Assembly: GCA_947625945.1 (NCBI GenBank)
Contig: CANQQI010000008.1
Location: 1 to 33,743, forward strand
DNA: 33,743 nucleotides
From: an uncultured Oscillospiraceae bacterium
Lineage (GTDB): Bacteria > Bacillota > Clostridia > Oscillospirales > Oscillospiraceae
Direction of reading: 5' to 3'
This document shows, piece by piece, positions 10,943 through 33,432 of this stretch; position 1 is the stretch's first letter; every line of letters begins with the position of its first letter. The notes below the pieces were generated by a model that was given only the letters and a program-made list of their open reading frames with translations, did no database searches and was not told the DNA's origin. Position numbers and translations under genes: made by a program.

Positions 10943-12757
10943 TTATTTGCTGTTCTTTTTATTTTCCCGGATGGCCTTTTTTGCGGTCTTCATTGCCTTG
11001 TGGGCAGCTTTCAGCTCGGCCTTTGCCTTTTTTTCCGCCCGTTTGGCCAGTACCTTCTGGTTTTCGGCCTCAAAGTCCAGGCCCTTCTTTTCACATTTCT
11101 CTTTCAGCTCCCGGACGCGGATCTCCTCCGCCATGCGGTCGGCCTCCTCCCGCTCCCGGCGCTCCAGCTCGTCAGCGGGGATATACTCAATACCCAAGGC
11201 GGCGCATTCGGCCACCTTCCGGTCTTGAAGCTCTCGAGACACCTGGGGAAGATGCTTTTCAATGTCGAACAGGAAGAAGAAGATCACGAACACCAGGATG
11301 CCGATAAGGATGTAGCTGCCCTGATAGGCGAAGTTGATCCAGCCGGTGGCAGCCGCGGGCTGGTCTGCATACAGGGCAATATCGCCGTTCATGCCAATCT
11401 GCTGGGGCTGCATATAACCGCTGGCCATCAGGCCTAGGTTGAAGATGCCCTGGGCAATGCCGACGGCAAACATCATGGACGCGCTGGAGAAGCCGCCGGT
11501 AAGCCCGTCGCTGCGGACCTTGGTTTTCCACTCCACATGGTCAATGACATCGCCCATGTAGGAGGTAATGACGTAAGAAAACGAGATATTGCCAATGGCG
11601 GCCAGTGCCGTGCCGATCATAATCATCATACGGCTGCCGGCGTTCATGTAGGCAAATATGGAGCCGAAGACTGTAATGATTGCGCCGCCCCAGATCACCT
11701 TCCGGCGGCCCAGCTTTTTCATCAGCGGCAGGAGCAGCAGAATGCCCGGGCCCATGGGGGACAGCGCGATCATCTGGAAGCTGGCCTGGATCGCGCCAAC
11801 CTCACCGTAAGCGTTGCCCCGGACGACCCATCCGGAGTAGTAGATCAGGGAGATGTTCCGCATATTGGTCAGAATCTCCGTGACCAGCAGCAGGATGATA
11901 AACATCACCCAGTATTTGTCTACAATGCAGGCCTTCAGCTGCTGGAACATGGTTGCCTCGGTGTGAGGGGCAGAAGGCGCGGTAGCATTGGAATCCTCGA
12001 TCCCCACCTGATTGCGGCGCTCCTCCGTGACCCGCTCTCGGGTGTAGAAATACTGCACGAAGGCCAGAGGCACGCTCAGCAGGGCAAAGGCGGACATGGT
12101 CACAAAGTAACCCTGGGCGTTATTGCCGTGCATGGCCGAGCATACAGCGGACAGAATCATGGGGAACAGGATGGACACAAGACCCGTGCCCACATTCGCG
12201 GTGATGCGGGCCGCCATGGCGTTGTTCTTCCGCTGGTTCACATTTCGGGTGGACAAGGCGGCGGACAACTCCTTGGACATATTCCACATGGTGTAGGCCA
12301 CGCAGTAATAGAGGTTGTAGCTGACGATCACCCAAATGGCTTGGGCCATGGTTCCTTGGAATGGCATCCAGAACATCAGAATAATGCTGATGGCCACCAG
12401 CGGAGCGGAGATGATCATCCATGGCCGGACCTTGCCCTGGCGGCAGGTGGTCATGTCGATGAGCTTGCTCATGATGAGGTTCGTCACTGCGTCCAGCAGT
12501 TTGGACACCACGGGGAACAGGACCATAAACGTGGCGATCCAGGCCGCCCGGTCCACCGTAAATCCCAGGATGTCGGTGAGGTACTGGTTGAAGTAGCTGT
12601 TGACGATGGACTGGCCAATGAGCATTCCGTAGGGACCTAAAACGTAGCCCAACCACATCTCTTTGGCAGTGGTGTTGGCGGAAGTGATGCGCGAGTCCCA
12701 TTTGTGGCTGGCAAAGGCCCCGGACAGCAATCCGCGTTTTTCTTTTGCCGCGTTCAT
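10943..12757 (-). CDS. GPH-family MFS glycoside/cation symporter with long charged C-terminal tail
   Basis: 604 aa; TTCRQGKVRPWMI, multiple TM helices, STRNVNQRKNNAMA; Lys/Ala/Glu-rich C-terminus. Confidence 0.88.
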   Translation of the reverse strand: MNAAKEKRGLLSGAFASHKWDSRITSANTTAKEMWLGYVLGPYGMLIGQSIVNSYFNQYLTDILGFTVDRAAWIATFMVLFPVVSKLLDAVTNLIMSKLIDMTTCRQGKVRPWMIISAPLVAISIILMFWMPFQGTMAQAIWVIVSYNLYYCVAYTMWNMSKELSAALSTRNVNQRKNNAMAARITANVGTGLVSILFPMILSAVCSAMHGNNAQGYFVTMSAFALLSVPLAFVQYFYTRERVTEERRNQVGIEDSNATAPSAPHTEATMFQQLKACIVDKYWVMFIILLLVTEILTNMRNISLIYYSGWVVRGNAYGEVGAIQASFQMIALSPMGPGILLLLPLMKKLGRRKVIWGGAIITVFGSIFAYMNAGSRMMIMIGTALAAIGNISFSYVITSYMGDVIDHVEWKTKVRSDGLTGGFSSASMMFAVGIAQGIFNLGLMASGYMQPQQIGMNGDIALYADQPAAATGWINFAYQGSYILIGILVFVIFFFLFDIEKHLPQVSRELQDRKVAECAALGIEYIPADELERREREEADRMAEEIRVRELKEKCEKKGLDFEAENQKVLAKRAEKKAKAELKAAHKAMKTAKKAIRENKKNSK

Positions 12758-14997: not shown

Positions 14998-16776
14998 TTA
15001 TTTTACTTTCTTTGCCTTTTTGGCGGCCTTCTTGGCTTCCTTAGCTGCCCGCTTGGCCAGCACTTTCTGGTTTTCAGCCTCAAAGTCCAGGCCCTTCTTG
15101 GCGCATTTTTCCTTCAGTTCTTTAATCCGGTTTTCCTCGGCCTCCTGCGCCTGCAGCGCCCGCTCCTGCTTTTCCAGCACGGACTGGGGGATGTACTCGA
15201 TGCCCTGGGCTTCGCATTCCTTGCGCTTCTTTTCCTCCAAGGACCGCTGTACAGTGGGCATATCCCGCTCGATCTTAAAGAAGAACGCGAAAAGGATGAA
15301 GAACAGCACACCGGTGAGCATATTGGCGCCCTGATAAGAGAAGTTGATCCAGTTGGTGGCTGCCTGGGTCTGATCCGCATACAGAAGGATCTGATCCCCG
15401 TCATTGTTGATGAAGGAGCCAACCACTTCCGGCTGGACGTACTTTGTAACGACCAGACCCAGATTGAACAGCGCCTGGCCTATGCCCTTGGAGAACATCT
15501 CCGCGAAGCCGACCACAGCCGCCGTCAGGCCCTCTACCCGCACGCCCCGGGAGTACTCCACATGGTCGATGGCATCGCCCACGAAAGTGAGCATGGAGTA
15601 GATCAGCGCCATAGCGCCGATGGAGTAAATGGCAGTGCCGCCATAGATCGCACCGGTCTGCCCTACGCTCAGAAATGCGGCAAACGCGCCTACCGCCGCA
15701 AAAACCGACCCGACAACGATGACCTTGGTGCGGCCGAACTTTTTGAACAGCGGCAGCAGCAGGAGCAATCCGGGGCCCATGGGCGCCATGGAGATCATGG
15801 TGAATTTTGCCTGAATGGATGCGTATTCGCCGTAGGCGTTGCCATTGACCACCCAGCCGCTGTAATAGACCTGGGCGACGCTTCGCATGGCGTTGAGTAC
15901 CTGATAGATCAGGATCATCAGGATCAGCATGATCCAGTATTTATCCCGAATGCACGCCTTGAACTGCTCGACAAAGGAGGCTTCCTTCACCAGTGTCTGG
16001 CCCTGGGGCTGGCCGGTCACACCGTACTGATTGCGGCGCTCCTCGGTGATCCGCTCCCGGGTGAAGAAGTACTGCACGAAGGTCAGCGGTACGGCGATGC
16101 AGCACATCACCGCCATGCAGACCAGATATCCATCCCGGGTGTTGCCTACCATGCCGCTGATGGCGGTAAGAATGGTGGGGAACAGGATAGAAATAATGCC
16201 GGTGCCGATATTTTTCGTGATCTGGCCGGCCATGGAGTTGTTTTTCCGCTGCTGGAAATTCCGGGTAGACAGCGCAGCGGTCAACTCATAAGACATATAC
16301 CACATGGTATAGCCCACGGAGTAGAACAGATTGTAGGCCACAATGATCCAAATCGCCATGACCACCGGGTTGGAAAACGGAATCCAGAACAGCATCATCA
16401 GGCTGACGACCATGATGGGCAAGCTCAGGATCAGCCAGGGGCGGAGCTTACCCTGGCGGCAGGTGGTGTTATCCAGGACCTTGGCCATCAAAACATTGGT
16501 GATGGCATCCAGGATCTTGGAGAACAGGGGGAACAGGACCATAAAAGTGCCGATCCAGAGCCCCATACTGGAGGTGAAGCCCAGAACGTCGGTCAGATAC
16601 TGGTTGAAGTAACTGTTGACGATGGATTGCAGCAGCATGGCTCCGAAGGGACCGGCCACATAGCCCAGCCACAGCTCTTTTTTGCCTACGTTGGCGGATG
16701 TAATGCGGGTGTTCCAGAAGCTGCCCCGAAAGGCATTTTCAAGAAGCCCATTTTTGGTTTTCGTCGGTTCTGACAT
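14998..16776 (-). CDS. GPH-family MFS glycoside/cation symporter with charged C-terminal tail
   Basis: 592 aa; TTCRQGKLRPWLILS; tail ELKEKCAKKGLDFEAENQKVLAKRAAKEAKKAAKKAKKVK. Confidence 0.88.
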   Translation of the reverse strand: MSEPTKTKNGLLENAFRGSFWNTRITSANVGKKELWLGYVAGPFGAMLLQSIVNSYFNQYLTDVLGFTSSMGLWIGTFMVLFPLFSKILDAITNVLMAKVLDNTTCRQGKLRPWLILSLPIMVVSLMMLFWIPFSNPVVMAIWIIVAYNLFYSVGYTMWYMSYELTAALSTRNFQQRKNNSMAGQITKNIGTGIISILFPTILTAISGMVGNTRDGYLVCMAVMCCIAVPLTFVQYFFTRERITEERRNQYGVTGQPQGQTLVKEASFVEQFKACIRDKYWIMLILMILIYQVLNAMRSVAQVYYSGWVVNGNAYGEYASIQAKFTMISMAPMGPGLLLLLPLFKKFGRTKVIVVGSVFAAVGAFAAFLSVGQTGAIYGGTAIYSIGAMALIYSMLTFVGDAIDHVEYSRGVRVEGLTAAVVGFAEMFSKGIGQALFNLGLVVTKYVQPEVVGSFINNDGDQILLYADQTQAATNWINFSYQGANMLTGVLFFILFAFFFKIERDMPTVQRSLEEKKRKECEAQGIEYIPQSVLEKQERALQAQEAEENRIKELKEKCAKKGLDFEAENQKVLAKRAAKEAKKAAKKAKKVK

Positions 16777-18086: not shown

Positions 18087-18131
18087 AAATCTAAACATTC
18101 GCATGTTGCACATTACTTGGAGGTATTTGAA

Positions 18132-19835
18132 ATGAAAGGCAAAAAAGAAAAAACCAAAATGAGGTTCAGATGGTGGCAGATCATAATGATCATTTTGGCT
18201 GCGGTCATCACATTTATGGTTGTCGCTGGTGTCATTGGTTACAGCATCTCTCGTGCCCGGCGGGGAAATATCTATGTCTATACCCAGGAGGTGCGGCAGA
18301 TCAAGGACCCGGAGGGATTCGGTACCGTGGAGGTCTTTACAATGCCCTTAGACCCTGCGGTCCCGGTGGATCGAGCCTGCTACACGCCTTCCGGCAGAGT
18401 CCTTTTAAGTTATGACGAAGGCCAAGACACCGTGATCTGTACCATGAACGATGACGGCACCGCCTGTTTAGAGCTGTTCCGCGGAAAGGTGCCAGGAAAA
18501 TACCGGCTGATGCTTTGCCAGGACAATGCTAGGGTGCTTCTGGGCGATGCCATGCTGGAGTGCCCTGAAGGACAAACGCTGGATACCTGTGCCCCAGGCG
18601 CCGCCATATTGATTCCCGTGGAGTTTCCCGCTGCATTTGCTGACGATCCCGCTGTGACCAGCAAATGGACGGAGATCATTTTTTCACCTGACGGCCAATA
18701 TATCGCTTGGACCATCCGACGCAGTGACTGCGGAGCTGCTAACGCCATTGGACGGCTGGTGCGCTATGATGACCGCTATGTAATCGAGGACGCCAAATAC
18801 ATCAGCGCCATGAATGCATATTCCCCGGACCCGGAGCATGATGGCCAGCTTCTTTACAGTCCTGTTATCGGCGGCGAGGTCAAGCAATTTGTCCACGGTG
18901 GGGCAGCAATTTCCTTAGTGGGCGCTGATCCCTGCGGTATGGGAGATTCTGTCATACAAGATATTGCCACCGGCGAGGTCCTTCAGGTGACCCACTGCCC
19001 AGGTTATGACGAAACGACCCTGCTGTCCCCTGACGAGAAGCTGGGTATTGTCATGACCAGCCGCTTTTCTAAGTCTTCCGATCTGGCCGTGCTGGGCCTG
19101 GTTCCCAGGCCCTACGGTGACCCACTTCACAACATCATGGCTCAGATCTATATGTATAGCATCACAGGTGTTCGCAACTCGCGCCAGGGCAATATCGGTC
19201 CGGCGCTCATCGATATGGCACGTTCCATGGAGGAGCCCGGCTATGTCGGAGTGGATCTTAGCGACCCGGAGGGGAACTGGGTGTACCACTCTCCCATGTC
19301 CTGGAAGAATGACAGTACGCGCGCAATGTGGATGGAGCGGCAGCGAAATGGAAACGGCATCCGCATCCAGATCGTCTCGCTGCCGGAATACCAGCCCGGT
19401 CCTCCGGTGGCGACGGTGGAAACGCCCCAGGCTGGTGATTACGGCGATACCTCGATCGGAGATCCCACTGTTCACGGCAGGATTCCGGGTAAGGTTTCCG
19501 GGTATGCGGAGATCACCAAGGAGAGCGGGTTTCTGGGCGTAACGACTGTGACGGTCACCTATGAGAATTACAGCGACGACGGCAGGTATTATTTCAACGG
19601 CACGGAGCGCTCCAGCGGTTCCGTCATAACGGCTACCAGCTACACTTCCCATATCCGCGTGACCAATGCGGACGGAAAGGAGCTTGGCGGCATGGATGTG
19701 GAGCTTCGTTTTAGTGCGGCATACCGGCTTTCTTCCATATTTAAGGGTGCCACGCCAGAGCTGGATCTGAGCCAAAGCTCCGGTACCGCCACATGGGACA
19801 CGGTCACGGAAGATATTTCCGTTCTTGCCCCGTGA
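18132..19835 (+). CDS. Membrane-anchored extracellular beta-rich (TolB/PD40 propeller-like) protein of unknown function
   Basis: Start MKGKKEKTK with GGAGG upstream; single N-terminal TM (WWQIIMIILAAVITFMVVAGVIGYSI); repeated IIFSPDGQYIAW / LLSPDEKLGIV motifs. Confidence 0.7.
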   Translation: MKGKKEKTKMRFRWWQIIMIILAAVITFMVVAGVIGYSISRARRGNIYVYTQEVRQIKDPEGFGTVEVFTMPLDPAVPVDRACYTPSGRVLLSYDEGQDTVICTMNDDGTACLELFRGKVPGKYRLMLCQDNARVLLGDAMLECPEGQTLDTCAPGAAILIPVEFPAAFADDPAVTSKWTEIIFSPDGQYIAWTIRRSDCGAANAIGRLVRYDDRYVIEDAKYISAMNAYSPDPEHDGQLLYSPVIGGEVKQFVHGGAAISLVGADPCGMGDSVIQDIATGEVLQVTHCPGYDETTLLSPDEKLGIVMTSRFSKSSDLAVLGLVPRPYGDPLHNIMAQIYMYSITGVRNSRQGNIGPALIDMARSMEEPGYVGVDLSDPEGNWVYHSPMSWKNDSTRAMWMERQRNGNGIRIQIVSLPEYQPGPPVATVETPQAGDYGDTSIGDPTVHGRIPGKVSGYAEITKESGFLGVTTVTVTYENYSDDGRYYFNGTERSSGSVITATSYTSHIRVTNADGKELGGMDVELRFSAAYRLSSIFKGATPELDLSQSSGTATWDTVTEDISVLAP

Positions 19836-19971: not shown

Positions 19972-21738
19972 TTAATGGTTCTTCCTCTTGGCCTTCTGTG
20001 CTTCTTTCTTTGCGCGTTTGCTCAAAACCTTATTGTTCTCCGTCTCAAAGTCCAGGCCTTTCCGGGCACAACGCTCTTTTAACTCCCGGATACGGGTCTC
20101 CTCCGCCAGGCGCTCCTGCTCTGCAATTTCCAGACGTTCCTGTTCGTCAGCCGGAATGTACTCGATACCCAAGGCGGCGCACTCCGCGACCTTTCGTTCC
20201 TGAAGCTCTTTTGAAACTTTTGGAAGATACTTTTCCAAATCGAATATGAAGAAAAACACGACAAACATCATCACACCAATGATGATATAGCTCCCTTGAT
20301 ATGCAAAATTGATCCATGTCGTAGCGGCGGCCGTTTGATCTGCATACAGCGGGATGTTATCTGTGGAAATCCCGATCTGCTGAGGCTGTGTATAGCCTGA
20401 CAACATCAGTCCCAAATTGAATAGGCCCTGCGCGATTCCGACGCCGATCATCATGCCCGCACTGGTAAATCCACCTGTCAGGCCGTCACAACGGACACCT
20501 GTTTTCCATTCCACATGGTCAATGACGTCTCCCATATAAGAGGTGATCACATACGCGACACCGATGTTGCCGATGCCGCCCAATGCGGTGCCTATGTAAA
20601 TCATCATTCTGCTTCCTGCATTCATAAACGCGAACACGGAGCCCAGCGCAACAAGGATCGATCCGCCCCAAATACAGGTGCGCCGTCCAAATTTCTTCAT
20701 AAGCGGCAGCAGCAGCAAGATGCCGGGTCCCATAGGCGACAGTGCGATCATTTGAAAGCTCGCCTGAATGGTAGCAAACTGACCATAGGCATTGCCCTGC
20801 ACGACCCATCCGGAATAATAGACCAGGGAAATGTTTCTCATATTTGCCAAGATCTGCTGGACGATCATGACCAGAACAAAACTGATCCAGTACTTGTCCT
20901 GGACACATGCCTTGAGCTGTTCCAGCAGAGACGCTTCCCGTTGCGATTCGGTAAGCAGTGACTTTCCAGTTGAATCTTTGATACCGGTCATATTCCGGCG
21001 TTCTTCTGTCACCCGCTCACGGGTATAGAAATACTGAACAAAAGCCAACGGAATCGCCAGGAGCGCAATTGCCGACATACATACGAAGTAGCCCTTTGCG
21101 TTATCACCGTTTACAGCCGCCGTTGCAGCGGAAAGTACCATTGGGAACAGGATCGATGCCAAACCGGTCCCAACATTCAGCGTAATCCGGTCCGCCATGG
21201 CATTGTTCTTCCGCTGATTCACATTTCTTGTAGACAGTGCGGAGGACAGCTCCTTGGACATATTCCACATGGTGTAGGCGACACAGTAGTATAGGTTATA
21301 GGAAATAACGACCCATACCGCCTGCACAACCGGATTACTTACCGGAATCCAGAACATGAGAATAATACTGATCGCAACAATCGGCGCGGAAATAATCATC
21401 CATGGCCGGACCTTGCCCTGACGGCAGGTGGTATGGTCGATGACCCAGCACATGACCAAATTTGTTATGGCATCTAAAATTTTGGAAATTACCGGGAAAA
21501 GCACCATGAATGTGGCGATCCATGCTGCCCGATCAACTGTAAACCCGATAATGTCTGTAAGATACTGGTTAAAATAACTGTTTACAACAGATTGGCCCAG
21601 CAGCATTCCGTATGGTCCGATGACATAGCCCAACCACATTTCTTTTTTAGTCGTGTTGGCGGATGTGATCCGAGAGTTCCATTTCGGACTGCTGAAGGCA
21701 TTCGCAAGCAGTCCACGTCTTTCTTTTACAGCATTCAT
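19972..21738 (-). CDS. GPH-family MFS symporter with charged C-terminal tail, close paralog of 10943..12757
   Basis: 588 aa; MNAVKERRGLLANAFSSPKWNSRITSANTTKKEMWLGYVIGPYGMLLGQS... aligns along its length with the 604-aa protein. Confidence 0.88.
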   Translation of the reverse strand: MNAVKERRGLLANAFSSPKWNSRITSANTTKKEMWLGYVIGPYGMLLGQSVVNSYFNQYLTDIIGFTVDRAAWIATFMVLFPVISKILDAITNLVMCWVIDHTTCRQGKVRPWMIISAPIVAISIILMFWIPVSNPVVQAVWVVISYNLYYCVAYTMWNMSKELSSALSTRNVNQRKNNAMADRITLNVGTGLASILFPMVLSAATAAVNGDNAKGYFVCMSAIALLAIPLAFVQYFYTRERVTEERRNMTGIKDSTGKSLLTESQREASLLEQLKACVQDKYWISFVLVMIVQQILANMRNISLVYYSGWVVQGNAYGQFATIQASFQMIALSPMGPGILLLLPLMKKFGRRTCIWGGSILVALGSVFAFMNAGSRMMIYIGTALGGIGNIGVAYVITSYMGDVIDHVEWKTGVRCDGLTGGFTSAGMMIGVGIAQGLFNLGLMLSGYTQPQQIGISTDNIPLYADQTAAATTWINFAYQGSYIIIGVMMFVVFFFIFDLEKYLPKVSKELQERKVAECAALGIEYIPADEQERLEIAEQERLAEETRIRELKERCARKGLDFETENNKVLSKRAKKEAQKAKRKNH

Positions 21739-21760: not shown

Positions 21761-22618
21761 TTATCCGATTAAGCAAGCCGGATTATCGTGGGTCATGATG
21801 TACACCTGCCTATGATTGAATCCCCGGTCTAGCATCGCATCCATAAACATCATCAGGCTCTCCACAGGATATTCAGCCCGAATCTGCCCACGGTCTGTGG
21901 AGAGAAATACATTCTCAGCACCCAACTCCCGAATTGTAAGGGCCATATAATCCGCTGAAACAAGATTGTGCCCAATATCCAGCCAGAGTTTTTCGACCAT
22001 CGCGCCTTTTTTGACAAAGGCCTTTTGGACTTCTATGGGCAGACTCGTACAATTCCAATCTGGGTGGGTCAAGACGCACTTCACTCCCATGTCGCAGGCT
22101 GCATAGATCACTGCCGCGGATTCCCCAAGACTGATATGACCCGTGGCCACCACAGCGCCGTACTGCTTAATTAACTCCAGGATCTCATATACTTCGGGCT
22201 TTAGAGTCCCATCTTCATTCAACACTCTGATTCCGGAGGCAGCCTGCTTGCCCCCGACGGCAGCTACATACTCGATATGGTTGTGTGCCTGGATCGTTGG
22301 CATCCAAACCATTTTCGCCCCAAGCCGCAGGCTGGTCTCAACGGCCTGTGGGTTTAAGCCGCCCACAGAGCTGTTTAGGACGATAGAGCCATATGCTTTG
22401 GTATTGAACTTACCGCAGCTGTTTACCAACGCCGCTCTTGCGGCAGTGGAACCACTGTGATTTTTAAGCATGACGCCTGCCATCCCGTAATCATTCGCCA
22501 TGGCTGTTAATTCAAAGTCATTGACAATTCGCGGTAAAGTGTCCGGCGCTGTGTGGGTATGCAGGTCATACGCGCCTGCCATCAATTCCAAGACGGCTTC
22601 ATGCTGGGGTTGGTACAT
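21761..22618 (-). CDS. DUF6282-type putative metal-dependent (amido)hydrolase
   Basis: 285 aa; AYDLHTHTAPDTLPRIVNDFEL, GVMLKNHSGSTAARA, GHISLGES, VLTHPDWNCTSLP: metal-ligand-type His/Asp motifs. Confidence 0.72.
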   Translation of the reverse strand: MYQPQHEAVLELMAGAYDLHTHTAPDTLPRIVNDFELTAMANDYGMAGVMLKNHSGSTAARAALVNSCGKFNTKAYGSIVLNSSVGGLNPQAVETSLRLGAKMVWMPTIQAHNHIEYVAAVGGKQAASGIRVLNEDGTLKPEVYEILELIKQYGAVVATGHISLGESAAVIYAACDMGVKCVLTHPDWNCTSLPIEVQKAFVKKGAMVEKLWLDIGHNLVSADYMALTIRELGAENVFLSTDRGQIRAEYPVESLMMFMDAMLDRGFNHRQVYIMTHDNPACLIG

Positions 22619-22652: not shown

Positions 22653-23834
22653 TTATTTTATTTCATACGTCCTTCGGGCAATGCCCAGCTCCTCATCGGT
22701 GGGGATCACCCGCACGCAGACTGCGGAATCCGGCGTGGAGATCACCGCCATTCCTTGGCAGCCTTCGTTTTTTGCTTTGTCCAACCGGACACCCAGGGGG
22801 GCCAATTTTTCGCAGACCATTTTCCGGATCAGCGGGGCGTGTTCCCCGATCCCGGCGGTGAACACCAGATCGTCCAGCCGCCCCAGGTCCAGATAAAAAG
22901 CACCGATATAGTGAACGATGCCGGATACGAACACGTCGATGGCCAATTTGGCCCGGGCATTTCCGGCGGCGGCAGCCTCCTGAATATAGCGCAGGTCGCC
23001 GCTGACCCCGGAGAGCCCTAAAAGACCGCCCTTTTTCTGGAAGCCATCCATAATTTCTTCTTCGGTGAGACCTTGACTGCGCAGGAAAGACACCATGCTG
23101 GCGTCCATGTCGCCTACCCGGTTGGCGTGGATCAGGCCAGACTCCAGAGACATCCCGAAGCTGGTATCCACGCTTTTCCCATTCAGGATCGCGCAGACGG
23201 AGCAGCTTCCGCCCAAGTGGCAGGAAATGGCGGCATATTCCCGCTTTTCTCCGTTGAGGACATCGGCGATATAACTGTGAGACGCGCTGTGATAGCCAAG
23301 ACGCTGCACGCCGTACTTTTCGTACCATTCGTAGGGAACGCCGAAAAGCCGCCGCTCCAAGGGGATGTCCCGGTGAAAAGCGGTTTCGAAGGCGCCGACG
23401 AACCGAGCGTGGGGCAGCGCCTCCCGCATCACTTCGATAGCCTTGATATAGGCGGCGTTGTGTACCGGCGCCAGGGGCAGCCAGTCCCGCATTCCCCGCA
23501 AAACCGGCTCGTCGATCTCATGGACACCGAAAAAGCCCTTTGACAAGGTCGCTTTGAAGCCCACCCGTTCGATCTCCTCTACACGGGAAAGAACTGCTCC
23601 TTCGCCCTCTGTCAAGCATCCCAGGAACCGCCGGATTCCGGTCTGATAGTCAGGGATATCCTGACCGGTAAGGGTATAATCGATACCGGACGCGTAGCTT
23701 TGAAAGCCAAAGATGGCGTCATTCCGGCTGCCGACCCGCTCTGTCCAGCCCCGGGCCAGCACCCGGGCCTCCGGCATCTCATAGAGCTTGAATTTCAGGG
23801 AGGTGCTGCCCACGTTGCAAACCAGAATTTTCAT
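22653..23834 (-). CDS. Divergent acetate/propionate-kinase-family (ASKHA) kinase
   Basis: Start at MKILVCNVGSTSLKFKLYEM with GGAGGG upstream; AFETAFHRDIP, HLGGSCSVCAILNGKSVDTSFG, FTAGIGEHAPLIR. Several canonical acetokinase motifs altered. Confidence 0.88.
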   Translation of the reverse strand: MKILVCNVGSTSLKFKLYEMPEARVLARGWTERVGSRNDAIFGFQSYASGIDYTLTGQDIPDYQTGIRRFLGCLTEGEGAVLSRVEEIERVGFKATLSKGFFGVHEIDEPVLRGMRDWLPLAPVHNAAYIKAIEVMREALPHARFVGAFETAFHRDIPLERRLFGVPYEWYEKYGVQRLGYHSASHSYIADVLNGEKREYAAISCHLGGSCSVCAILNGKSVDTSFGMSLESGLIHANRVGDMDASMVSFLRSQGLTEEEIMDGFQKKGGLLGLSGVSGDLRYIQEAAAAGNARAKLAIDVFVSGIVHYIGAFYLDLGRLDDLVFTAGIGEHAPLIRKMVCEKLAPLGVRLDKAKNEGCQGMAVISTPDSAVCVRVIPTDEELGIARRTYEIK

Positions 23835-23835
23835 C

Positions 23836-24021
23836 TCAGTCCAGCCCTCCCAGTACCGCCAAAATCTCCTGCATTTCCCGGTCTCCGCCGGCAACGGGCT
23901 TCCAGTCCACCTGCACGGTTTGATAGCCCTGCTTTTCCAGCGCCTCGGCAAAGAGTTTCGGCCCCACATTCACCGTTATCAATTCCGAACGGAACAGGCT
24001 CAAAATTTTATCACAATTCAT
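23836..24021 (-). CDS. Small protein matching the FdrA C-terminal domain, encoded as a separate ORF
   Basis: MNCDKILSLFRSELITVNVGPKLFAEALEKQGYQTVQVDWKPVAGGDREMQEILAVLGGLD, like the end of E. coli FdrA as I recall it (VINIGLRSFALEL...VVHYQWSPVAGGNKKLARLLERL). GAGAGGGA before the ATG. Confidence 0.82.
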   Translation of the reverse strand: MNCDKILSLFRSELITVNVGPKLFAEALEKQGYQTVQVDWKPVAGGDREMQEILAVLGGLD

Positions 24022-25582
24022 GTTGATCCCTCTCTTGCTTCTGACGGATGATCTCACCGGCCAGCATGGCCGCCCGGCGGTTGGTTTTGCATACCAGCAC
24101 CCCAGCATCCTCCAGCTTTTTCCTCTGATCATTTACATTTTGAAAATCTGCGTCAGTACCTAAAACGGACGCGACAAACACGATTTGCCGTCCCGCGGCT
24201 GCCGTCTGAGCCTGGGCTTTTCGGATATCGTCCAGCACGAATCCCACCGGGTCCATGTGCCCCGGGGGCGTCAGAATAAAGTCCAGCAGGATGACCGCCG
24301 TCTCCGGATCGGCCGCCTCCCGCAGAATCGCAGGCCGGCGGACGCCGGGATCGATGGCCGGATGGGGCCGCCCCCGGGTAAACTCCTCCTCGCCATAGTC
24401 TACGCAGGCGTTGCAAACGCTTCTGTGGGAATCTGGCAACCGCCACTGCTCTTTCAGAGGGCAGTTGGAATAAACCGGACCGATTCCCTCCACCAGGGTG
24501 TGCATGGCCTCGTCCATGAAGGTGCCTCCGCTGAAGGCGCCCCGGACATACTTCTGCTCCCTTGCCAAGCATGGCACGACCTGTGCCGCCCGCTCCCGGA
24601 TCTGAGCCTCCGTTTCTAAAGGATAGTCTTTTCCAATCAGCCGGAGGCATTTTTGCGCACAGTCATCCAGGTCTGCCGCCCAGATAGCGCCGGTCCGTTC
24701 CACAGCCGCCCGGTCGCTGCTCATAAACATGGCTACCACCGGCTTTTTGCACCGGGAAACCCGGTCCAGAATGGCCGGTTCCACCTGATTGCCGATGCGG
24801 CGGGCAATGAGGGCAATATAGGCCGTCTCCGGATCTGCCTCCAGAGCGTCGATGCCCATGAGCATCATGATACCGCCCACCTCATTTTTCAGATCGTTGC
24901 CGCCGGTGCCGATGGTCTGCGAAACGCCGCTGCCGGCCTCGTGCAAAATGGCTGCCACATGCTGGATGCCCACGCCGGAGGCTCCACAAATTCCAAAGGG
25001 GCCCCGATTGTTCACGCTTGCCAGCACCAGCGCCGCGCCATTGATATTGGCAACGCCGCAGTCCGGTCCCATGCACAGCAGGCCCTTTTCCCGGGCCAGC
25101 TCCTTCATCTCCCGCTCCTGGGAAAGCGGAACATTATTGCTGAATACCACGCAGTGCAGTCCGGCGTTCAGTGCCTTTTTGACCTCCGCCAAGGCATACT
25201 CCCCGGGCACGGCAACGGAACACAGGTTTGCTCTGGGGCAGGCTTCCACCGCCGCCTTGATGGAGGGGTAGGCTTTCGGCAGGTCCTCCCCTTCCCCGTT
25301 TTCCTCCTGCTTTGGCGCCAGATTGGCCTCCACCGCCGCCACGGCGGCGTCAAAAGCCGCCTGGGATTCCGCTCGGGCCGCCACCACATAGCAGCTACCG
25401 TCGCAGCCCTTGATTTCCTCAGTCAACAGGCAGATGTCCGCAAGGATGTCCTTAAACGGCTCTGTTGCCATGCCGGCATAGCCGATTTCCAAGCCTGGCT
25501 GCTCGTTGAGAATGCTGGCGGCCAGCAGCGTTTCCAGAGAATCGATATATCTGCCTCGCTCTACTTTCGTATAGTTGTTCAT
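24011..25582 (-). CDS. fdrA: FdrA / AllF-like protein (succinyl-CoA-synthetase-like fold; oxamate transcarbamylase-related)
   Basis: 523 aa; EKGLLCMGPDCGVANINGAAL, GICGASGVGIQHVA, TIGTGGNDLKNEVGGIMML, FSGGTFMDEA, GRPHPAIDPGVRR. Confidence 0.88.
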   Translation of the reverse strand: MNNYTKVERGRYIDSLETLLAASILNEQPGLEIGYAGMATEPFKDILADICLLTEEIKGCDGSCYVVAARAESQAAFDAAVAAVEANLAPKQEENGEGEDLPKAYPSIKAAVEACPRANLCSVAVPGEYALAEVKKALNAGLHCVVFSNNVPLSQEREMKELAREKGLLCMGPDCGVANINGAALVLASVNNRGPFGICGASGVGIQHVAAILHEAGSGVSQTIGTGGNDLKNEVGGIMMLMGIDALEADPETAYIALIARRIGNQVEPAILDRVSRCKKPVVAMFMSSDRAAVERTGAIWAADLDDCAQKCLRLIGKDYPLETEAQIRERAAQVVPCLAREQKYVRGAFSGGTFMDEAMHTLVEGIGPVYSNCPLKEQWRLPDSHRSVCNACVDYGEEEFTRGRPHPAIDPGVRRPAILREAADPETAVILLDFILTPPGHMDPVGFVLDDIRKAQAQTAAAGRQIVFVASVLGTDADFQNVNDQRKKLEDAGVLVCKTNRRAAMLAGEIIRQKQERDQHEL

Positions 25583-25594
25583 ATCCTATCCTCC

Positions 25595-26863
25595 TCACAT
25601 CCGCGCCGGTGTAAGCCGGAGCGCCTCCCGGTAGATTCCACGCAACGCATCCTTGAAGCATTCCATAGGCAGCTCCGCCGCTCCGGCGCCACCCTGCCCG
25701 CCGCGCTTCAGAGCGGAACCTCCGTGGCTGATAGGCAGAATGTTATAGCCCACCACCTTGCGGGCATCCAGACCCACCGGAAAGCCTCGGAAGTCATCCC
25801 AGGGAATGGGGGCAAAGGTATGCTCCCCCAGGGATACCGCCCGGGCCTTTTCCGTCCGGTCCCGCGCCTCGGCGATATTGGAGCCGGTCATCCGCATATA
25901 GGCCGGACCAGCGATGGCGGACATCCCACCCAAGCCGTAGACCTCCGTGACGCAGCTGTCCCCCAGGTAGCCCAGCAGATCCGCCTCTGTATAGGACGGA
26001 TTCAGGAATGTGCCCTTGATTACAGGCGCCGGGGCGGTGTACCACCGATTTCCGGTCCCCGCAAGCTGAATGCCAAATTCCACGCCGTTGCCGCCCATGC
26101 CTGCCAGAACCGTGGACAGGGGCACCTGCTTCATGGTTGCGGTCAGGCTCTCCACGCCTGCCATCATGGGATGCAGGAAGAATCGGTCGTTGGCGGCGAA
26201 ATGCCGAATCATGGCGTCCCGCTCCGAATCCTCCTGGTCCAGCATCCAGGGAATGACCTGTAGCGCCAGATACATGGATGCCGCCGGTTGGCGATTGTGA
26301 TTTTCGTCGCCCATGCCGGCGGTCTTTGCCAGCACAGTCACCAAATCGATTCCACCGGCAGCCCGAACCGCCCTGCCCAGAGCGGGACCGTAGTGATCCC
26401 GGAACCAGCATAGGTCTCGCTCCACATCTTCGTCATAAAAGCCCCAGCGCAGGCATTTGGGATTGGGGCCGGGGTGAATGGGGGCGTAGCCCCTTCCGCC
26501 GAAAACCCGGTCCTGGGCGATCATCACCGGCATACTGGCGGACACCACCATGCTGGCGGCGCAGCCGCACTGATGGTCCTGGGCAGGTTCCACGGTGATT
26601 TCTCCCCGCAGGACCATCTGCCAGGCCTCTTCCGAGGTCGTGGCCAGTTTTTCATGAACGGCCGCGCCGCAAACCGCGGTACGGATGGGCGTGGTGAGCC
26701 GCTCCACAGGAAGGGGTGGGCCAGGCACGAGAATCCTGGTCCGGGTCATCCCGGGGATGACCTCCAACGCCGGCCGGACATCGATCCATACCGGCCGGCC
26801 CTTGAGGAGGATCTCCATCACTCGGTCATTGGCAGCGTTGACTTGTTGCTCGATGGTCATCAT
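25595..26863 (-). CDS. ylbE: DUF1116 family protein (YlbE/AllG-like)
   Basis: 422 aa; VWIDVRPALEVIPGMTR, DHQCGCAASMVVSASMPVMIAQDRVFGGRGYAPIHPGPNPKCLRWGFYD; adjacent to fdrA as in E. coli. Confidence 0.85.
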   Translation of the reverse strand: MMTIEQQVNAANDRVMEILLKGRPVWIDVRPALEVIPGMTRTRILVPGPPLPVERLTTPIRTAVCGAAVHEKLATTSEEAWQMVLRGEITVEPAQDHQCGCAASMVVSASMPVMIAQDRVFGGRGYAPIHPGPNPKCLRWGFYDEDVERDLCWFRDHYGPALGRAVRAAGGIDLVTVLAKTAGMGDENHNRQPAASMYLALQVIPWMLDQEDSERDAMIRHFAANDRFFLHPMMAGVESLTATMKQVPLSTVLAGMGGNGVEFGIQLAGTGNRWYTAPAPVIKGTFLNPSYTEADLLGYLGDSCVTEVYGLGGMSAIAGPAYMRMTGSNIAEARDRTEKARAVSLGEHTFAPIPWDDFRGFPVGLDARKVVGYNILPISHGGSALKRGGQGGAGAAELPMECFKDALRGIYREALRLTPARM

Positions 26864-27753
26864 TTTCCGTCCTTTCTATCGGTTCTCAGCATCGTGCGCA
26901 TGGCGTTCAAACGTCTTTCCAGAACAGCGGGCGCAGGCGGAGCGCCGGTCTCCACGTCAAAGCCATGATAGGAACCGGGGATCAGATTCACTTCCACCGG
27001 CACACCCGCCTGGCCCAGCCTTTGCCCGTAGGCAACCGCCTCATCCCGCAAAATATCCAATTCCTGGGGCTCCACATAGGCCGGGGGCAGTCCCGTCAAA
27101 TTCTTGCGGCGCATTGGAACCGCGTAGGTTCCCTCCCCCGGGTCCTTCCTGAGGTATTCCTTCCACATAAATCTGTTGGAGCTGGCGGACCAGGCAGCGT
27201 TAGGATATGCCGCCGCGGAGGGATAACGCTCAAAGTGGTCGTCCAGCGCCGGATAGATCAACACCTGTCCGGCAAGCTCCCCTTCACCACGATCCGTCAG
27301 GCACTGGGCCAGCCCAGCGGCAAGGGTTCCTCCGGCGCTCTCCCCGTAGAGAAGGCTTCTCCCGGGCATGGCCTGCCAAACCTCCAGGCAGTCCTGAAAG
27401 GGCGCGGGATAGGGATCTTGCGGCAGCAGCCGGTATTCCGGCAGAAACACCCGTATCCGGAGCCGCTGGGCATATAGAGCCGCAAGGGCCAGAGAGCCGG
27501 TCTGTACCGGCAGCAGGAACCCGCCGCCGTGGCAGTAGAGCATTTCCGGAAGCGCCTCCTCGCCTACCGGCGCCAGAACAAAGCATTCCGTCGATCCGAT
27601 TTTCGTGCGGTCCAGCGTGACTCCGGCAGGCGGCGTCCAGGCCCGGGCGCCGGCCCGGAGATTTCCCGCCAGTGCCCGGATCACCGGCGTCAGCTTGGGA
27701 TTCCCAAAATCGATGGCCGGGAGCCGCCCCGGGGGATGTGTCCAGCCTTCCAT
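26860..27753 (-). CDS. Alpha/beta hydrolase (fold-3, esterase/lipase type)
   Basis: 297 aa; HGGGF oxyanion motif, GESAGG nucleophile elbow, GSYHGFD catalytic His; 4-nt ATGA overlap with the DUF1116 gene. Confidence 0.87.
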   Translation of the reverse strand: MEGWTHPPGRLPAIDFGNPKLTPVIRALAGNLRAGARAWTPPAGVTLDRTKIGSTECFVLAPVGEEALPEMLYCHGGGFLLPVQTGSLALAALYAQRLRIRVFLPEYRLLPQDPYPAPFQDCLEVWQAMPGRSLLYGESAGGTLAAGLAQCLTDRGEGELAGQVLIYPALDDHFERYPSAAAYPNAAWSASSNRFMWKEYLRKDPGEGTYAVPMRRKNLTGLPPAYVEPQELDILRDEAVAYGQRLGQAGVPVEVNLIPGSYHGFDVETGAPPAPAVLERRLNAMRTMLRTDRKDGK

Positions 27754-27960: not shown

Positions 27961-28839
27961 ATGAAAATCGGAATGATCGGCCTGGGCATTATGGGAAAGC
28001 CCATGGCGATGAATCTGCTCCGGGCAGGCTATGACCTGACCGTTTCCAGCGCCAACCGGGCCGCTTCGGAGCTGGCGGCGGCGGGGGCCAAGACCGCCGA
28101 CAATCAGCAGATCGGGCGGACCTGCGATCTGGTTCTGACCATGCTCCCCAATTCTCCCCAGGTCCGGCAGGTCATGCTGGGCGAGGACGGCGTGGGAGCC
28201 CAGATGAAGCCCGGTTCGACCTATATCGACATGAGTTCCATCGACCCCATGACCTCCAAGCAGGTCGCCGCCGCCCTGGCGGAACGGGGGGTGGAAATGT
28301 TGGACGCCCCCGTCTCCGGCGGGGAGCCCAAGGCCATCGAGGGCACGCTGGCCTTCATGGTCGGCGGCAAGCAGGAGGTCTTCGACCGGTGCAAGCCGGT
28401 GCTTCTGGCCATGGGTGCCTCCGTGGTGCGCTGCGGCGAGGTGGGCGCCGGAAATACCGCCAAGCTGGCCAACCAGATCATCGTGGCCTGCAACATCCAG
28501 GCGGTGGCGGAGGCCCTGACTCTGGCCCAGAAGGCGGGGGTAGATCCGGCGGTGGTCTTTGACGCCATCAAGGGCGGTCTGGCCGGTTCCACGGTACTCA
28601 GCGCCAAAGCGCCCATGATGCTCTCCGGTAACGACCGGCCGGGCTTCAAGATCGACCTGCATATCAAAGACCTGAATAACGCCCTGGACTGCGCCCACGC
28701 GGTGGGTGCGCCAGTGCCCATGACCGCCCAGGTGCAGGAGGTGTTGCAATGGTTGCACCACCATGAGGGCGGCCAGAAGGACCACAGCGCCATCGCCCAG
28801 TACTATGAAGCCCTTGCCGGCATTCAACTGGGAAGATAG
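27961..28839 (+). CDS. garR: 2-hydroxy-3-oxopropionate (tartronate semialdehyde) reductase
   Basis: 292 aa; KIGMIGLGIMGKPMAMNLLRAGY, DAPVSGGEPKAIEGTLAFMVGG, GAGNTAKLANQIIVACNI, IKGGLAGSTVL, IDLHIKDLNNALD; AAGGAGGA RBS. Confidence 0.92.
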   Translation: MKIGMIGLGIMGKPMAMNLLRAGYDLTVSSANRAASELAAAGAKTADNQQIGRTCDLVLTMLPNSPQVRQVMLGEDGVGAQMKPGSTYIDMSSIDPMTSKQVAAALAERGVEMLDAPVSGGEPKAIEGTLAFMVGGKQEVFDRCKPVLLAMGASVVRCGEVGAGNTAKLANQIIVACNIQAVAEALTLAQKAGVDPAVVFDAIKGGLAGSTVLSAKAPMMLSGNDRPGFKIDLHIKDLNNALDCAHAVGAPVPMTAQVQEVLQWLHHHEGGQKDHSAIAQYYEALAGIQLGR

Positions 28840-28867: not shown

Positions 28868-28899
28868 CAGCCCTACAGCTAAAATTGGAGGCGCGGAAC

Positions 28900-30006
28900 A
28901 TGCCAAAAATTCAAAAGGTCGTGACAACGGTCTGGTACAACCGGGAGAATATGTCCGCTTTGCGCCGGGTCTTTCCTCAGGCATCGTTTTGCTATGTAGA
29001 TTTTTATGACAAGGAAAAACTGGCCCGGGAAGCCAAGAATGCGGACGTCGCTATTTTGATGGGGGATGTGGACCCCTGCCTGCTGGGGGAAAATACACTA
29101 AAATGGATTCACTGCGACCACGCCGGGCTAAACGGCTCTGCCCGCCCGGAGGTCTTTGAGAAAGGAATCCCGGTCACCGGGTCTGCGGGCCGCAGCGCCC
29201 CGGTGTTGGCGGAACACTGCATTTATTTCATGCTGCAAAGCTGCTACCACACACGGGCACTTTTGGAGGCCCAGGACGCGCGGCATTGGGGCGTGGCCGG
29301 GTCAGAGCAGTGGCGGGGACTCTACGGTCGAACGGCGGGGATCATCGGCATGGGGCACAATGGCCAGGCGCTGGCCCAACGGCTCCACGCCCTGGGCATG
29401 AAGCTGATTACCTACAATCGATCGCCGGTCCTAGGCTTTGATTATGTGTATAAAAAGCTGACCGCCGCCAATGGAGATCCCTTAGAACCGCTTTTGGCGG
29501 AGTCGGATTTTGTGATTCTTTGCGTCGCCCTGAATGACGAGACCTTCCACCTCATGAACGCGAAAACCTTTGCCCAGATGAAGCCGGGAGCGTTCCTGGT
29601 CAATATGGCCCGGGGCGGCGTGGTCTGCACGGAGGATTTGATCCAGGCTCTGAAAGACGGCAGGCTCGGCGGCGCGGGATTAGACGTTTTTGAAACCCAG
29701 CCTCTGGAGCCGGACAGCCCGCTCTGGTCCATGCCGGAGGTCTATATCACGCCCCACTGCACCCCTCAGGTGCAGGACCGGGCAGCCAGAAGCATCGAGA
29801 TCATCCGGGAAAACGCCCGCCGCTTTGAGGCGGGGCAGCCGCTACTGAATCAGCTTCGGCCATCGGACGCCATGACGGAAGGAAAGGCGGAGGGCGGCTG
29901 GGCCCGGATGATGAATACCAAGCTAACCAAGGAACAGATCGAAAAAATGGACCTGGAAAAATATCTTGGGAAGCGGGGATGGAAGGACCCCTCCGAGTGG
30001 ATGTAA
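28900..30006 (+). CDS. D-isomer-specific 2-hydroxyacid dehydrogenase with C-terminal extension
   Basis: Start at MPKIQK; GIIGMGHNGQALAQRL, NMARGGVVCTEDLIQALKDGRLGGAGLDVFETQPL, ITPHCTPQ. Confidence 0.9.
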   Translation: MPKIQKVVTTVWYNRENMSALRRVFPQASFCYVDFYDKEKLAREAKNADVAILMGDVDPCLLGENTLKWIHCDHAGLNGSARPEVFEKGIPVTGSAGRSAPVLAEHCIYFMLQSCYHTRALLEAQDARHWGVAGSEQWRGLYGRTAGIIGMGHNGQALAQRLHALGMKLITYNRSPVLGFDYVYKKLTAANGDPLEPLLAESDFVILCVALNDETFHLMNAKTFAQMKPGAFLVNMARGGVVCTEDLIQALKDGRLGGAGLDVFETQPLEPDSPLWSMPEVYITPHCTPQVQDRAARSIEIIRENARRFEAGQPLLNQLRPSDAMTEGKAEGGWARMMNTKLTKEQIEKMDLEKYLGKRGWKDPSEWM

Positions 30007-30084: not shown

Positions 30085-32034
30085 TCACTGGATCACGATT
30101 GCTTCATAAGAATTTAAAACATCCAGCCGAATCTCCAGATCGCCATCGTCATCCCGGCAGGAGATTTGGCCCCCGGACAGGGTGCGGACACTGTGCCCCG
30201 CCAGTCCGGGCAGGCGCAGATGAAGATCGCCGATAGGGACCGGCGGGAAATAGTGGCCGTCAAAGCAGCCGCTCTCGTTGACAAGCTGAACGACGGCGCA
30301 GCCTTCCTTCTTGGCCAGGGTCAGCTCCACCATGGCGGATACGCCGGGCACCAATTCCGGGAGCCCGCACAGTCCGAACAGGAGATCCTGCATGAAATTG
30401 AGGGTGTTCTGCCAGCCCTCTCGGTAATAGAGGCTGCCCAGCAGCGCCGGAACGTAGATTCCCCTGCCCGCGCCGTAAGGATGGACAGCAACTCCAGGCT
30501 GGTCGCAGGAGGGCACCGGATAGCACCGTTCCGGCGGGCCGTAGGGATGCTCCGGAATCAGACGCAGATAGGTTTTTGCCTCCGGCGCAAACGCTACCAT
30601 TCGGAAGTCTCCGCCGATCGCGATGACCGGCGCATCCGCACAGCGGGCAAATACTGCCCGGTCTGCCTCGGAAACCTCCAGTGCGGTGGACATCAGTCCC
30701 TTTTGACGCGCGCCGACCGCCGTTATTCCCAGGCATTTCAGCGCAATGGCATTACCCGCAATGCCGGTGTCGCCGGTGGCCAGCACCGTTCCGCCGTTTT
30801 CCGCGAAAGCATCCAGCAACTCAGCCTGACCGGCGCTGAGGGGCCGGACATCCCCCAGCAGCACCACCGATTTGCCGTCCAGCGCTTGGGCAGTCAGCTC
30901 CTGTAGCTTGCAGGTATCGAAGGGGACGTGGCTCTGGGTCAGGCTGTGGACCCAGCCGTATACCTCCGGGTCCTCCCGGCTCATACCGCCCTTCTCCACC
31001 ACCAGCACCGAAGCCGCCGAGCGCAGTCCAGCGTATACCTCTTCATTCCGCTTATGAAAGGCAAAAACCTTTTGGACCCGTTCATAGCCTGAGACATCCC
31101 GATGGTTGTCCAGTCTGCCCATGATGTAATAGCTCAGTCCGCCGCCGTTCGCCAGGCTCTGCCATAGCCGCAGCTCCGTGAGCGCCGGTGAAACGGAAGT
31201 GTCCCGATAGCGGAAGCCGACGAAATCCACACAGGCATTGTCCACGATCTGCCGCCGGCCGCCGGAGCGGGCGTTTGCCGAGGAACAGTACACCCATGCG
31301 CCCCGACCGATGTCCGTATTGCATTCCGTCCGCAGGTAATCAAAGCCGTTGACGGCCACCTCCGGATTGATGTCTCTGATGAAGCGCATCTGTCGGGCTT
31401 TATTGATGGCAATCTGCTTGGACTGGAAGCCCACATAGCGCATAAATCCCGGGTCCCGGAGCCCTGCCGCCGGAGGTTCCAGCCCAGTCTGCTCCCGATA
31501 CAGCCTTTTGCAGGTATCGCACATACATGGGCCGTATAAGGTCCCGTCATAGCCGGTCACAAATGCCCCGCTCATATTAAAGAAAATGCCGTCAAAAGGC
31601 AGGGCGGTCAATAATTCTTTTACAATGTCGTACAGGACCTGACGCTGGTAGGCGCTGTTGGGGCACACCTGAATATCACCGTTACAGTCAAACACCTTGC
31701 CTTCCGCGCTGCGGTAGAGCCAGTCGGGATGTCGGTCCGCAATGGGGTGGCGGATCTTTGAAAAATCCGTCCGGGCGATGACCCGAATCCCGGCTTTGTG
31801 GCACGCGTCCAGCAGACTTTTCAGACTGTCGCCGTGTAAATGCGCACTTTGGGTATGGTCAGGAATCGCCGTAAAATAGCTGGCAACGATTCCGGCGGCA
31901 TTCACCATCACTACGGTTGCGTCGAACTTCTGTAGATCCCGAACAAAGCGTTCCGCATCCAGGTCCTCCATATCCTGTTCCCGCAAATTGGTCTGGATCA
32001 TGCGCCAAGGATGATTTTCCCACCAATGGCTCAT
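30085..32034 (-). CDS. GHL6-like hypothetical glycosyl hydrolase with beta-galactosidase-trimerisation/GATase-like domain
   Basis: Start at MSHWWENHPWRMIQTNLRE with GAAAGGGGG upstream; TIM-barrel start (FDATVVMVNAAGIVASYFT...FDGIFFNMSG...YGPCMCDTCKRLY), later LGDVRPLSAGQAELLDAFAENGGTVLATGDTG. Confidence 0.75.
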   Translation of the reverse strand: MSHWWENHPWRMIQTNLREQDMEDLDAERFVRDLQKFDATVVMVNAAGIVASYFTAIPDHTQSAHLHGDSLKSLLDACHKAGIRVIARTDFSKIRHPIADRHPDWLYRSAEGKVFDCNGDIQVCPNSAYQRQVLYDIVKELLTALPFDGIFFNMSGAFVTGYDGTLYGPCMCDTCKRLYREQTGLEPPAAGLRDPGFMRYVGFQSKQIAINKARQMRFIRDINPEVAVNGFDYLRTECNTDIGRGAWVYCSSANARSGGRRQIVDNACVDFVGFRYRDTSVSPALTELRLWQSLANGGGLSYYIMGRLDNHRDVSGYERVQKVFAFHKRNEEVYAGLRSAASVLVVEKGGMSREDPEVYGWVHSLTQSHVPFDTCKLQELTAQALDGKSVVLLGDVRPLSAGQAELLDAFAENGGTVLATGDTGIAGNAIALKCLGITAVGARQKGLMSTALEVSEADRAVFARCADAPVIAIGGDFRMVAFAPEAKTYLRLIPEHPYGPPERCYPVPSCDQPGVAVHPYGAGRGIYVPALLGSLYYREGWQNTLNFMQDLLFGLCGLPELVPGVSAMVELTLAKKEGCAVVQLVNESGCFDGHYFPPVPIGDLHLRLPGLAGHSVRTLSGGQISCRDDDGDLEIRLDVLNSYEAIVIQ

Positions 32035-32154
32035 AGAAAAGCCCCCTTTCACTACTTGTATCATATCACGCAATTCCGTATTGGTATATATTGATATTAG
32101 CGAAATATTTCTTAAATTAGCGCTCAATTACGGTTGTGTAAAAAGATTATATAC

Positions 32155-32214: not shown

Positions 32215-33432
32215 ATGTCCATCCTGTCCCAACCCATCGACGAGCGGATCGCGTGCCTGCGAGAACTGCTGGAGTGTAACGGGAATCTGTTCAGCTGGAC
32301 CTACGATCCAGAGGGGACCCTCCTGGATGCCAGCAGCGAGGAGCTGGTCCTTAACACGCTGTTTTCCTCCACCGGGAGTATGCAATATATGCTGGAATAC
32401 AGCCGGAGCAATCATGCGCCGCTGATTCTCAGTATCCCTTACAACCTGGTATGGAGCGCGGTATTTGAAACAAAGGACGATGAAGTCACCCGCATCCATG
32501 TATTCGGGCCCTTCTCCACCAGGGAGACGCTGTCAACGGAGATTCGGCGCGCCATCGCCCGGGCACAAGTGCCCCGGGCCTGGCTGCCAAAGCTGATGCG
32601 GAATTTGGAACGCATTCCCACGGTCATGGTTAATCAGCTCTTTCAGTACACCCTGATGCTGCACTACTGCGTGGCAGGCGAACGGCTCAGTACCGGCGAC
32701 ATCCACTTTCAGCGTGCGGAGCTTGCCAGCCAAAAGACAGCCGACCATCCAAAGGGCGACCGGATGCAGACCTATATGGCGGAACGAGCGCTGCTGAAAA
32801 TGGTGCGGGAGGGAGATCCAAACTATAAAGCGGCGCTGTCTCAGGCATCTTCCATCAGCGGCGGCGTGGGGATTCAAAGCAGCGATTCTCTGACCCAGGC
32901 AAAAATCTCTGCCTCGGTATTCACCTCCCTCTGCACCCGGGCGGCTATTGAAGGCGGTATTTCACCCGAAGCGGCCTACTCCCGTGGGGATGCCTATATT
33001 CAAGATCTCATTGAATGCCATACCATGACTGATGTGGTGTTCGTCAATCACAAAATGTATGAAGACTTCATCATGCTGGTTCGCAAAAGCCGCATCAATC
33101 CCCACTGGTCCAAGCAGATTCAAAGCTGCTGCGATTATATCGAGCTTCATTCCGAAGAAAAACTCACCCTTTCCTTCTTGGCAGGGCGGATCGGTTACGC
33201 GAATTACTACCTGTCCAGAAAATTCAAGGAGGAAACCGGCGTCAGCATCAACACCTATATCAAGATCGTGCGGGTGGAACGCGCCAAAATGCTCTTGACC
33301 ACCACCCAGCTGAGTATTCAGGAGATCAGTGAGCGTCTTTGCTTTGGCACCCGCAGCTTTTTCGATGATACCTTCAAAAAAATAACAGGCGTAGCCCCTG
33401 CTGCTTACCGGGCGCAGAATCAGAAGCTATAA
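32215..33432 (+). CDS. AraC-family transcriptional regulator
   Basis: 405 aa; C-terminal double HTH (LSFLAGRIGYANYYLSRKFKEETGVSINTYIKIVRVERAKMLLTTTQLSIQEISERLCFGTRSFFDDTFKKITGVAPAAYR). Confidence 0.92.
   Translation: MSILSQPIDERIACLRELLECNGNLFSWTYDPEGTLLDASSEELVLNTLFSSTGSMQYMLEYSRSNHAPLILSIPYNLVWSAVFETKDDEVTRIHVFGPFSTRETLSTEIRRAIARAQVPRAWLPKLMRNLERIPTVMVNQLFQYTLMLHYCVAGERLSTGDIHFQRAELASQKTADHPKGDRMQTYMAERALLKMVREGDPNYKAALSQASSISGGVGIQSSDSLTQAKISASVFTSLCTRAAIEGGISPEAAYSRGDAYIQDLIECHTMTDVVFVNHKMYEDFIMLVRKSRINPHWSKQIQSCCDYIELHSEEKLTLSFLAGRIGYANYYLSRKFKEETGVSINTYIKIVRVERAKMLLTTTQLSIQEISERLCFGTRSFFDDTFKKITGVAPAAYRAQNQKL

Follow-up and report, generated by a model that had tools for sequence, protein, structure and literature searches.

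A remodelled acetokinase-family kinase beside divergent FdrA and AllG proteins in an uncultured Oscillospiraceae bacterium

In E. coli, the oxamic transcarbamylase AllF-AllG-AllH interconverts oxalurate plus phosphate and oxamate plus carbamoyl phosphate, and the carbamate kinase AllK, encoded in the same operon, makes ATP from the carbamoyl phosphate (PMC11326118; see also PMC9843812). In true acetate kinase (AckA, EC 2.7.2.1), Arg91 and Arg241 contact the acetate carboxyl, and the R91A variant has less than 1% activity (PMC6461089); Asn211 contacts the beta-phosphate of ATP and forms a hydrogen bond to Gly239, both being important for rate, N211 variants are impaired, and Val93, Leu122 and Pro232 are the published determinants for acetate (PMC4390882). 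In the non-phosphorylating L-fucose/L-rhamnose route (FucF/FucG, LRA5/LRA6), hydrolysis of a 2,4-diketo-3-deoxy acid yields pyruvate and lactate (PMC11199699). Here we compare these systems with a locus in a 33,743-nucleotide stretch of DNA from an uncultured Oscillospiraceae bacterium of the gut (contig CANQQI010000008.1; the window), in which an acetokinase-family gene lies beside homologues of AllF (FdrA) and AllG.

Over the kinase gene the plus-strand frame is broken by stops, and the minus strand is open. The product matches TIGR00016 with 313 bits, above the cut-off of 293.4, and PF00871 with 315 bits; it does not reach the butyrate kinase model TIGR02707 (53 bits against a cut-off of 289.1), Buk being a distant ASKHA relative, and has no match to the carbamate kinase model TIGR00746. 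Its best solved relatives are the AckA enzymes of T. maritima (2iir) and M. thermophila (1g99/1tuy), which it resembles in length and fold at 38-39% identity, and its AlphaFold model (mean pLDDT 93.8) superposes on 1g99 with a TM score of 0.94 at 38% identity. The profile matches and the superposition bear out the initial annotation, made from the letters alone, in calling the protein an acetokinase homologue with an intact scaffold.

Table 1. Features of the kinase locus in the window
Feature	Position	Strand	Evidence or remark
GPH-type sugar/glucuronide symporter (MFS_2)	19972..21738	-	profile matches
DUF6282 protein	21761..22618	-	PF19799, 227 bits; 34 bases downstream of kinase
Acetokinase-family kinase (K91/E148/G211 clade)	22653..23834	-	393 aa; profile, alignment, model
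FdrA-tail ORF, 61 codons	23836..24021	-	homologous to C-terminal tail of E. coli FdrA
FdrA/AllF homologue, succinyl-CoA-synthetase-like	24011..25582	-	NF004760, 357.9 bits (cut-off 433); PDB 3dmy, E 1.2e-58
AllG homologue, divergent clade	25595..26863	-	PF06545 (DUF1116), 211.9 bits; PDB 3clq; tree
Alpha/beta hydrolase (Abhydrolase_3)	26860..27753	-	first gene of run; end 4 bases inside allG
Tartronate semialdehyde reductase	27961..28839	+	TIGR01505, 391 bits (above 340.75); divergent neighbour, conserved in window-type loci
D-2-hydroxyacid dehydrogenase family protein	28885..30006	+	profile matches; conserved partner
GHL6 hypothetical glycosyl hydrolase	30085..32127	-	PF14871; conserved partner
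AraC-family regulator	32215..33432	+	profile match; conserved partner

The minus-strand run reads alpha/beta hydrolase, AllG, FdrA, a 61-codon ORF, kinase, DUF6282 protein and GPH symporter (Table 1), and its adjacent genes overlap or are separated by gaps of up to 34 bases. An apparent 176-base gap between FdrA and the kinase is occupied by the 61-codon ORF, which is shorter than the size limit of the initial ORF list and whose ATG overlaps the end of fdrA. The ATG at 23834 is likely the start of the kinase, because the stop of this conserved small ORF precedes it by one base; a longer start at 23969 was rejected, as that stretch is occupied by the small ORF in a different frame. The small ORF recurs between FdrA and kinase in loci of the window type (identity 63-100%); in E. 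coli-type loci this tail is part of FdrA itself, and sugar-acid loci have it joined to the N-terminus of AllG. Conserved partners of window-type loci are tartronate semialdehyde reductase, D-2-hydroxyacid dehydrogenase, GHL6 and the AraC regulator, together with a MOFRL or GlxK-type glycerate kinase and glycoside hydrolases. Neither AllH (PF11392) nor any match to arcC/TIGR00746 was found in the window genome, which is 92% complete, and such absence calls depend on genome completeness.

With three GPH-family symporter genes in 34 kb (10943-12757, 14998-16776 and 19972-21738) alongside GH2 and GH3 genes, the contig is a glycoside/uronide utilisation island. Two of its GH3-like proteins (8372-10933 and 349-4701, both minus strand) match the HMM in permuted order, the C-terminal part of the profile lying near the protein N-terminus and the catalytic part beyond residue 600. 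The 572-residue product of 18117-19835 (plus strand) resembles a membrane anchor at its N-terminus and matches nothing in Pfam or NCBIfam.

The active site of the kinase was compared, in M. thermophila numbering, in an alignment of 71 relatives and 10 canonical enzymes. The altered motifs quoted in the initial annotation (GFKATLSKG, LAPVHN, GYHSASH, HLGGSCS and SLESGL-HANRVGD) are all present, the alignment confirms their mapping to residues 91, 93, 122, 179 and 232, and the equivalents of His180 and Arg241 are retained as described, here and in 71/71 relatives. Relative to AckA, the window kinase carries H90F, R91K, V93T, L122V, F179Y and P232L, so that the acetate-pocket determinants Val93, Leu122 and Pro232 are replaced by Thr, Val and Leu. 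Further changes absent from that annotation are Asp148 to Glu (FDTAFH to FETAFH), Asn211 to Gly, Gly212 to Ser, Gly239 to Ala and a one-residue loop deletion after position 94. Lys91, Glu148, Gly211 and Ser212 each occur in 71/71 relatives, against Arg, Asp, Asn and Gly in 10/10 canonical enzymes, and the remodelling is therefore not chance. His90 is Phe or Tyr and position 95 is deleted in 71/71, Ser11 is Thr in 70/71, Gly239 is Ala, Ser or Asn in 69/71, Leu122 is Ala or Val in 58/71, and Pro232 is Leu in 56/71. The changes at Asp148 and Asn211 are the two most telling, and the case for remodelling is stronger than the initial annotation made it. Both catalytic residues Arg91 and Asp148 of AckA are thus absent throughout the clade, and the hydrogen-bond partners Asn211 and Gly239 have changed together.

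The impairment of true AckA by R91A and by changes at N211 weighs against an active enzyme, and catalysis with Lys91 and Gly211 may be regarded as putative. That the protein is an ASKHA paralogue with a regulatory role or no catalysis at all, as the importance of Arg91 and Asn211 (PMC6461089, PMC4390882) might indicate, is nevertheless very improbable, given that no other nucleotide or metal residue varies and that the clade is maintained across phyla. Asn7, Ser12, Lys14, His123, His180, Arg241, Arg285, Gly331 and Glu384 are unchanged in 71/71, and all of these except Ser12 are ATP- or metal-site residues whose retention supports a working kinase. Lys91 and Glu148 may form a length-swapped salt bridge. 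By themselves, the residue changes do not establish specificity.

The substituted kinases form a single clade apart from canonical AckA and TdcD (SH-aLRT 99), the tree supports here and below coming from quick searches and most loci from MAGs. Hosts are Oscillospiraceae, Lachnospiraceae, Erysipelotrichaceae, Spirochaetota, Latescibacterota and Poribacteria. A separate, canonical AckA scoring 509.6 bits is encoded elsewhere in the window genome, on a different contig. Of 28 clade genomes tested, most have a second, stronger acetokinase-family match. An ordinary acetate or propionate kinase with neutral or compensatory motif drift would agree with the TIGR00016 score and the close superposition on 1g99, and R91K and D148E could compensate each other. 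Against this stand the separate AckA genes, the invariance of the substitutions in 71/71 relatives, the linkage to FdrA/AllG and the lack of Pta among the scanned neighbours of the kinase, and we consider it improbable; an ordinary AckA duplicate was rejected as the main reading on account of the separate AckA and the invariant substitutions. The initial annotation had proposed a new carboxylate or carbamate specificity. There is good indirect support for a changed specificity, since the hallmark substitutions are clade-wide, the genome has its own normal AckA, and the kinase is linked to FdrA/AllG instead of Pta. The carbamate part of that proposal fares less well, as set out below.

The locus resembles the E. 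coli system in that a kinase gene adjoins those for AllF- and AllG-type subunits. It differs in that its kinase has the acetokinase fold and AllK the amino-acid-kinase fold, in its divergent AllG, and in the lack of ureide genes, a detected AllH or an adjacent carbamate kinase. A survey of AllG (PF06545) took in 341 genomes from the class and 399 from the phylum, and neighbourhoods were read for the class matches and 20 phylum loci. Divergent AllG proteins (about 187-230 bits on the Pfam model) adjoin a clade acetokinase in 7/7 loci on intact contigs, and three further divergent loci are cut at contig ends; near E. coli-type AllG (36 loci read), the clade acetokinase occurs in 0/36 and a carbamate kinase in 15/36. 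For the acetokinase, Fisher's test gives p = 3e-8, or p = 2e-6 with the three cut loci scored as lacking it, and for carbamate kinase (0/10 beside divergent AllG against 15/36) p = 0.019, with the loci drawn from related genomes and hence not fully independent, and with some short flanks. Across 43 AllG loci, carbamate kinase and the clade acetokinase are mutually exclusive. One further locus with a distant AllG-like gene (L178) belongs to neither type. In three loci (L121, L133 and L153), one open frame of 999, 1046 and 1003 aa, respectively, runs across FdrA and AllG, constituting natural FdrA-AllG fusions.

The kinase-linked AllG proteins likewise form a single clade (SH-aLRT 99), in which the sole non-linked member is a 4.2-kb fragment; one sequence in the AllG tree (L126) is mis-framed, and its long branch is meaningless. 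AllG retains an invariant core (E. coli numbering D184, H187, R189, N259, G260, G300, D301, S302 and E306), and both kinase-linked types, of the window and of sugar-acid context, share the changes N116D, N190Q, R258G, R266Q/K, M315A, N380H and T381G. The simplest reading of this pattern is unchanged chemistry on a different substrate.

That the initial annotation named carbamate is notable because the E. coli FdrA/AllG proteins make carbamoyl phosphate (PMC11326118), and it would have been correct if the acetokinase were a carbamate kinase by convergence, replacing AllK and using carbamoyl phosphate that FdrA/AllG releases from an oxalurate-like ureide. AllFGH and AllK supply the precedent for such a pair (PMC11326118), and the mutual exclusion of the two kinases, the absence of arcC from most kinase-linked genomes, including that of the window, the tartronate semialdehyde reductase and glycerate kinase genes that also neighbour E. 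coli allFGHK, and a single Ldh_2 (AllD-like) gene ahead of kinase-AllH in one locus (L037) agree with it. The AllG substitutions common to both linked types, however, and the sugar-acid dehydratases and SDRs that relatives carry in place of ureide genes argue against it, as does the gene content: no carbamate kinase, ornithine carbamoyltransferase, allantoinase (allB), allC or allE was matched in any of the 86 loci that contain homologues of the kinase family, the AllG-linked ones included, and no glyoxylate carboligase exceeded the cut-off in any of 31 genomes. An allantoin/ureide operon is not supported for the same reasons, and glyoxylate is an unlikely source since no carboligase passed the cut-off in those 31 genomes. 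We regard carbamate as the substrate as unlikely.

We favour, with moderate confidence, an ATP-forming acyl-phosphate kinase (acyl phosphate + ADP to acid + ATP) that would act beside a divergent FdrA-AllG in the usual kinase position, its acyl group most likely being non-carbamoyl and derived from the breakdown of plant-sugar acids. The observations behind this assignment are family and fold, the conserved remodelling, the operon coupling and the mutual exclusion with carbamate kinase. What favours a non-carbamoyl acyl phosphate is the divergence of residues in AllG, together with the genomic context of relatives, which is one of sugar-acid genes.

That context comes from the second of the two settings of AllG-linked kinases, the divergent AllG clade often lying among sugar-acid genes. 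The module comprises a Lactamase_B (lactonase-like) or Amidohydro_2 protein, SDR dehydrogenases, an IlvD/EDD dehydratase, a fumarate-reductase-like flavoprotein, FdrA, AllG, kinase and AllH, occasionally with a KDPG-type aldolase and a PfkB kinase; in four near-identical genomes it is split, with dehydratase-flavoprotein-FdrA-AllG on one contig and kinase-AllH on another. Its SDR, lactonase-like and dehydratase genes recall the L-fucose/L-rhamnose pathway (PMC11199699). That the dehydratase, flavoprotein and AllH of this module are missing from the window locus weighs against the assignment, and the KDPG-type aldolase of some modules could cleave the intermediate without phosphorolysis. The hydrolase of the L-fucose/L-rhamnose route belongs to the FAH family, and no FAH-family gene was seen among the scanned sugar-acid module genes; FdrA, AllG and the kinase would swap hydrolysis for phosphorolysis.

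For the step itself, we infer that FdrA/AllG would use phosphate to cleave its substrate, in the way AllFGH of E. coli cleaves oxalurate, and would pass the acyl phosphate on to the kinase. A 2,4-diketo acid (HOOC-CO-CH2-CO-R), of which oxalurate (HOOC-CO-NH-CO-NH2) is the nitrogen analogue, is a chemically natural candidate substrate and would yield (hydroxy)pyruvate and a hydroxyacyl phosphate. Attack of phosphate at the distal carbonyl would release pyruvate or, from a substrate hydroxylated at C3, hydroxypyruvate/tartronate semialdehyde, plus the acyl phosphate, from which the clade kinase would form ATP and a hydroxy acid; the tartronate semialdehyde reductase and glycerate kinase of window-type loci would fit C3-hydroxylated products. 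By this analogy it is possible, and we put it forward tentatively as rather doubtful in its particulars, that FdrA/AllG(/AllH) of the clade cleaves the C-C bond of a 2,4-diketo (3-deoxy) sugar acid to (hydroxy)pyruvate and glyceroyl-, lactoyl- or glycoloyl-phosphate, from which the kinase makes ATP. In a search limited to open papers, we found no description of such a substrate-level phosphorylation step or acyl-kinase specificity and no paper tying FdrA/DUF1116 to diketo acids or acetokinase.

The idea that the entire clade depends on FdrA/AllG as partner was rejected: AllG is present in only 9/46 genomes with wider-clade kinases. A kinase can therefore belong to the clade with no FdrA/AllG beside it, and in most wider-clade genomes searched the kinase must have another role, with acyl phosphate from elsewhere. 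The neighbours of AllG-free clade kinases have no common theme (ProA with C15 peptidase, cation efflux, URO-D, AsnA, methyltransferases). In two loci (L043 and L045) the kinase lies near a strong ProA (glutamate-5-semialdehyde dehydrogenase, more than 600 bits), with a C15 peptidase between them in L045, and ProA is a possible acyl-phosphate reduction partner there. Latescibacterota loci, among them L072 and L074, have the order MFS-kinase-MR_MLE (enolase superfamily), another sugar-acid-like context.

Taken by sequence, these kinases are a coherent acetokinase subfamily, part of which is predicted to act beside a divergent AllF/AllG complex. Current family models label the clade kinases acetate kinase and FdrA acyl-CoA synthetase. 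With the kinase swap beside AllF/AllG recognised, there is an acyl-kinase subfamily open to test, and the AllFGH transcarbamylases, a recently named family, separate into two or more functional types. Should the cleavage prove to be phosphorolytic, these anaerobes would gain one ATP where known pathways merely hydrolyse the diketo acid.
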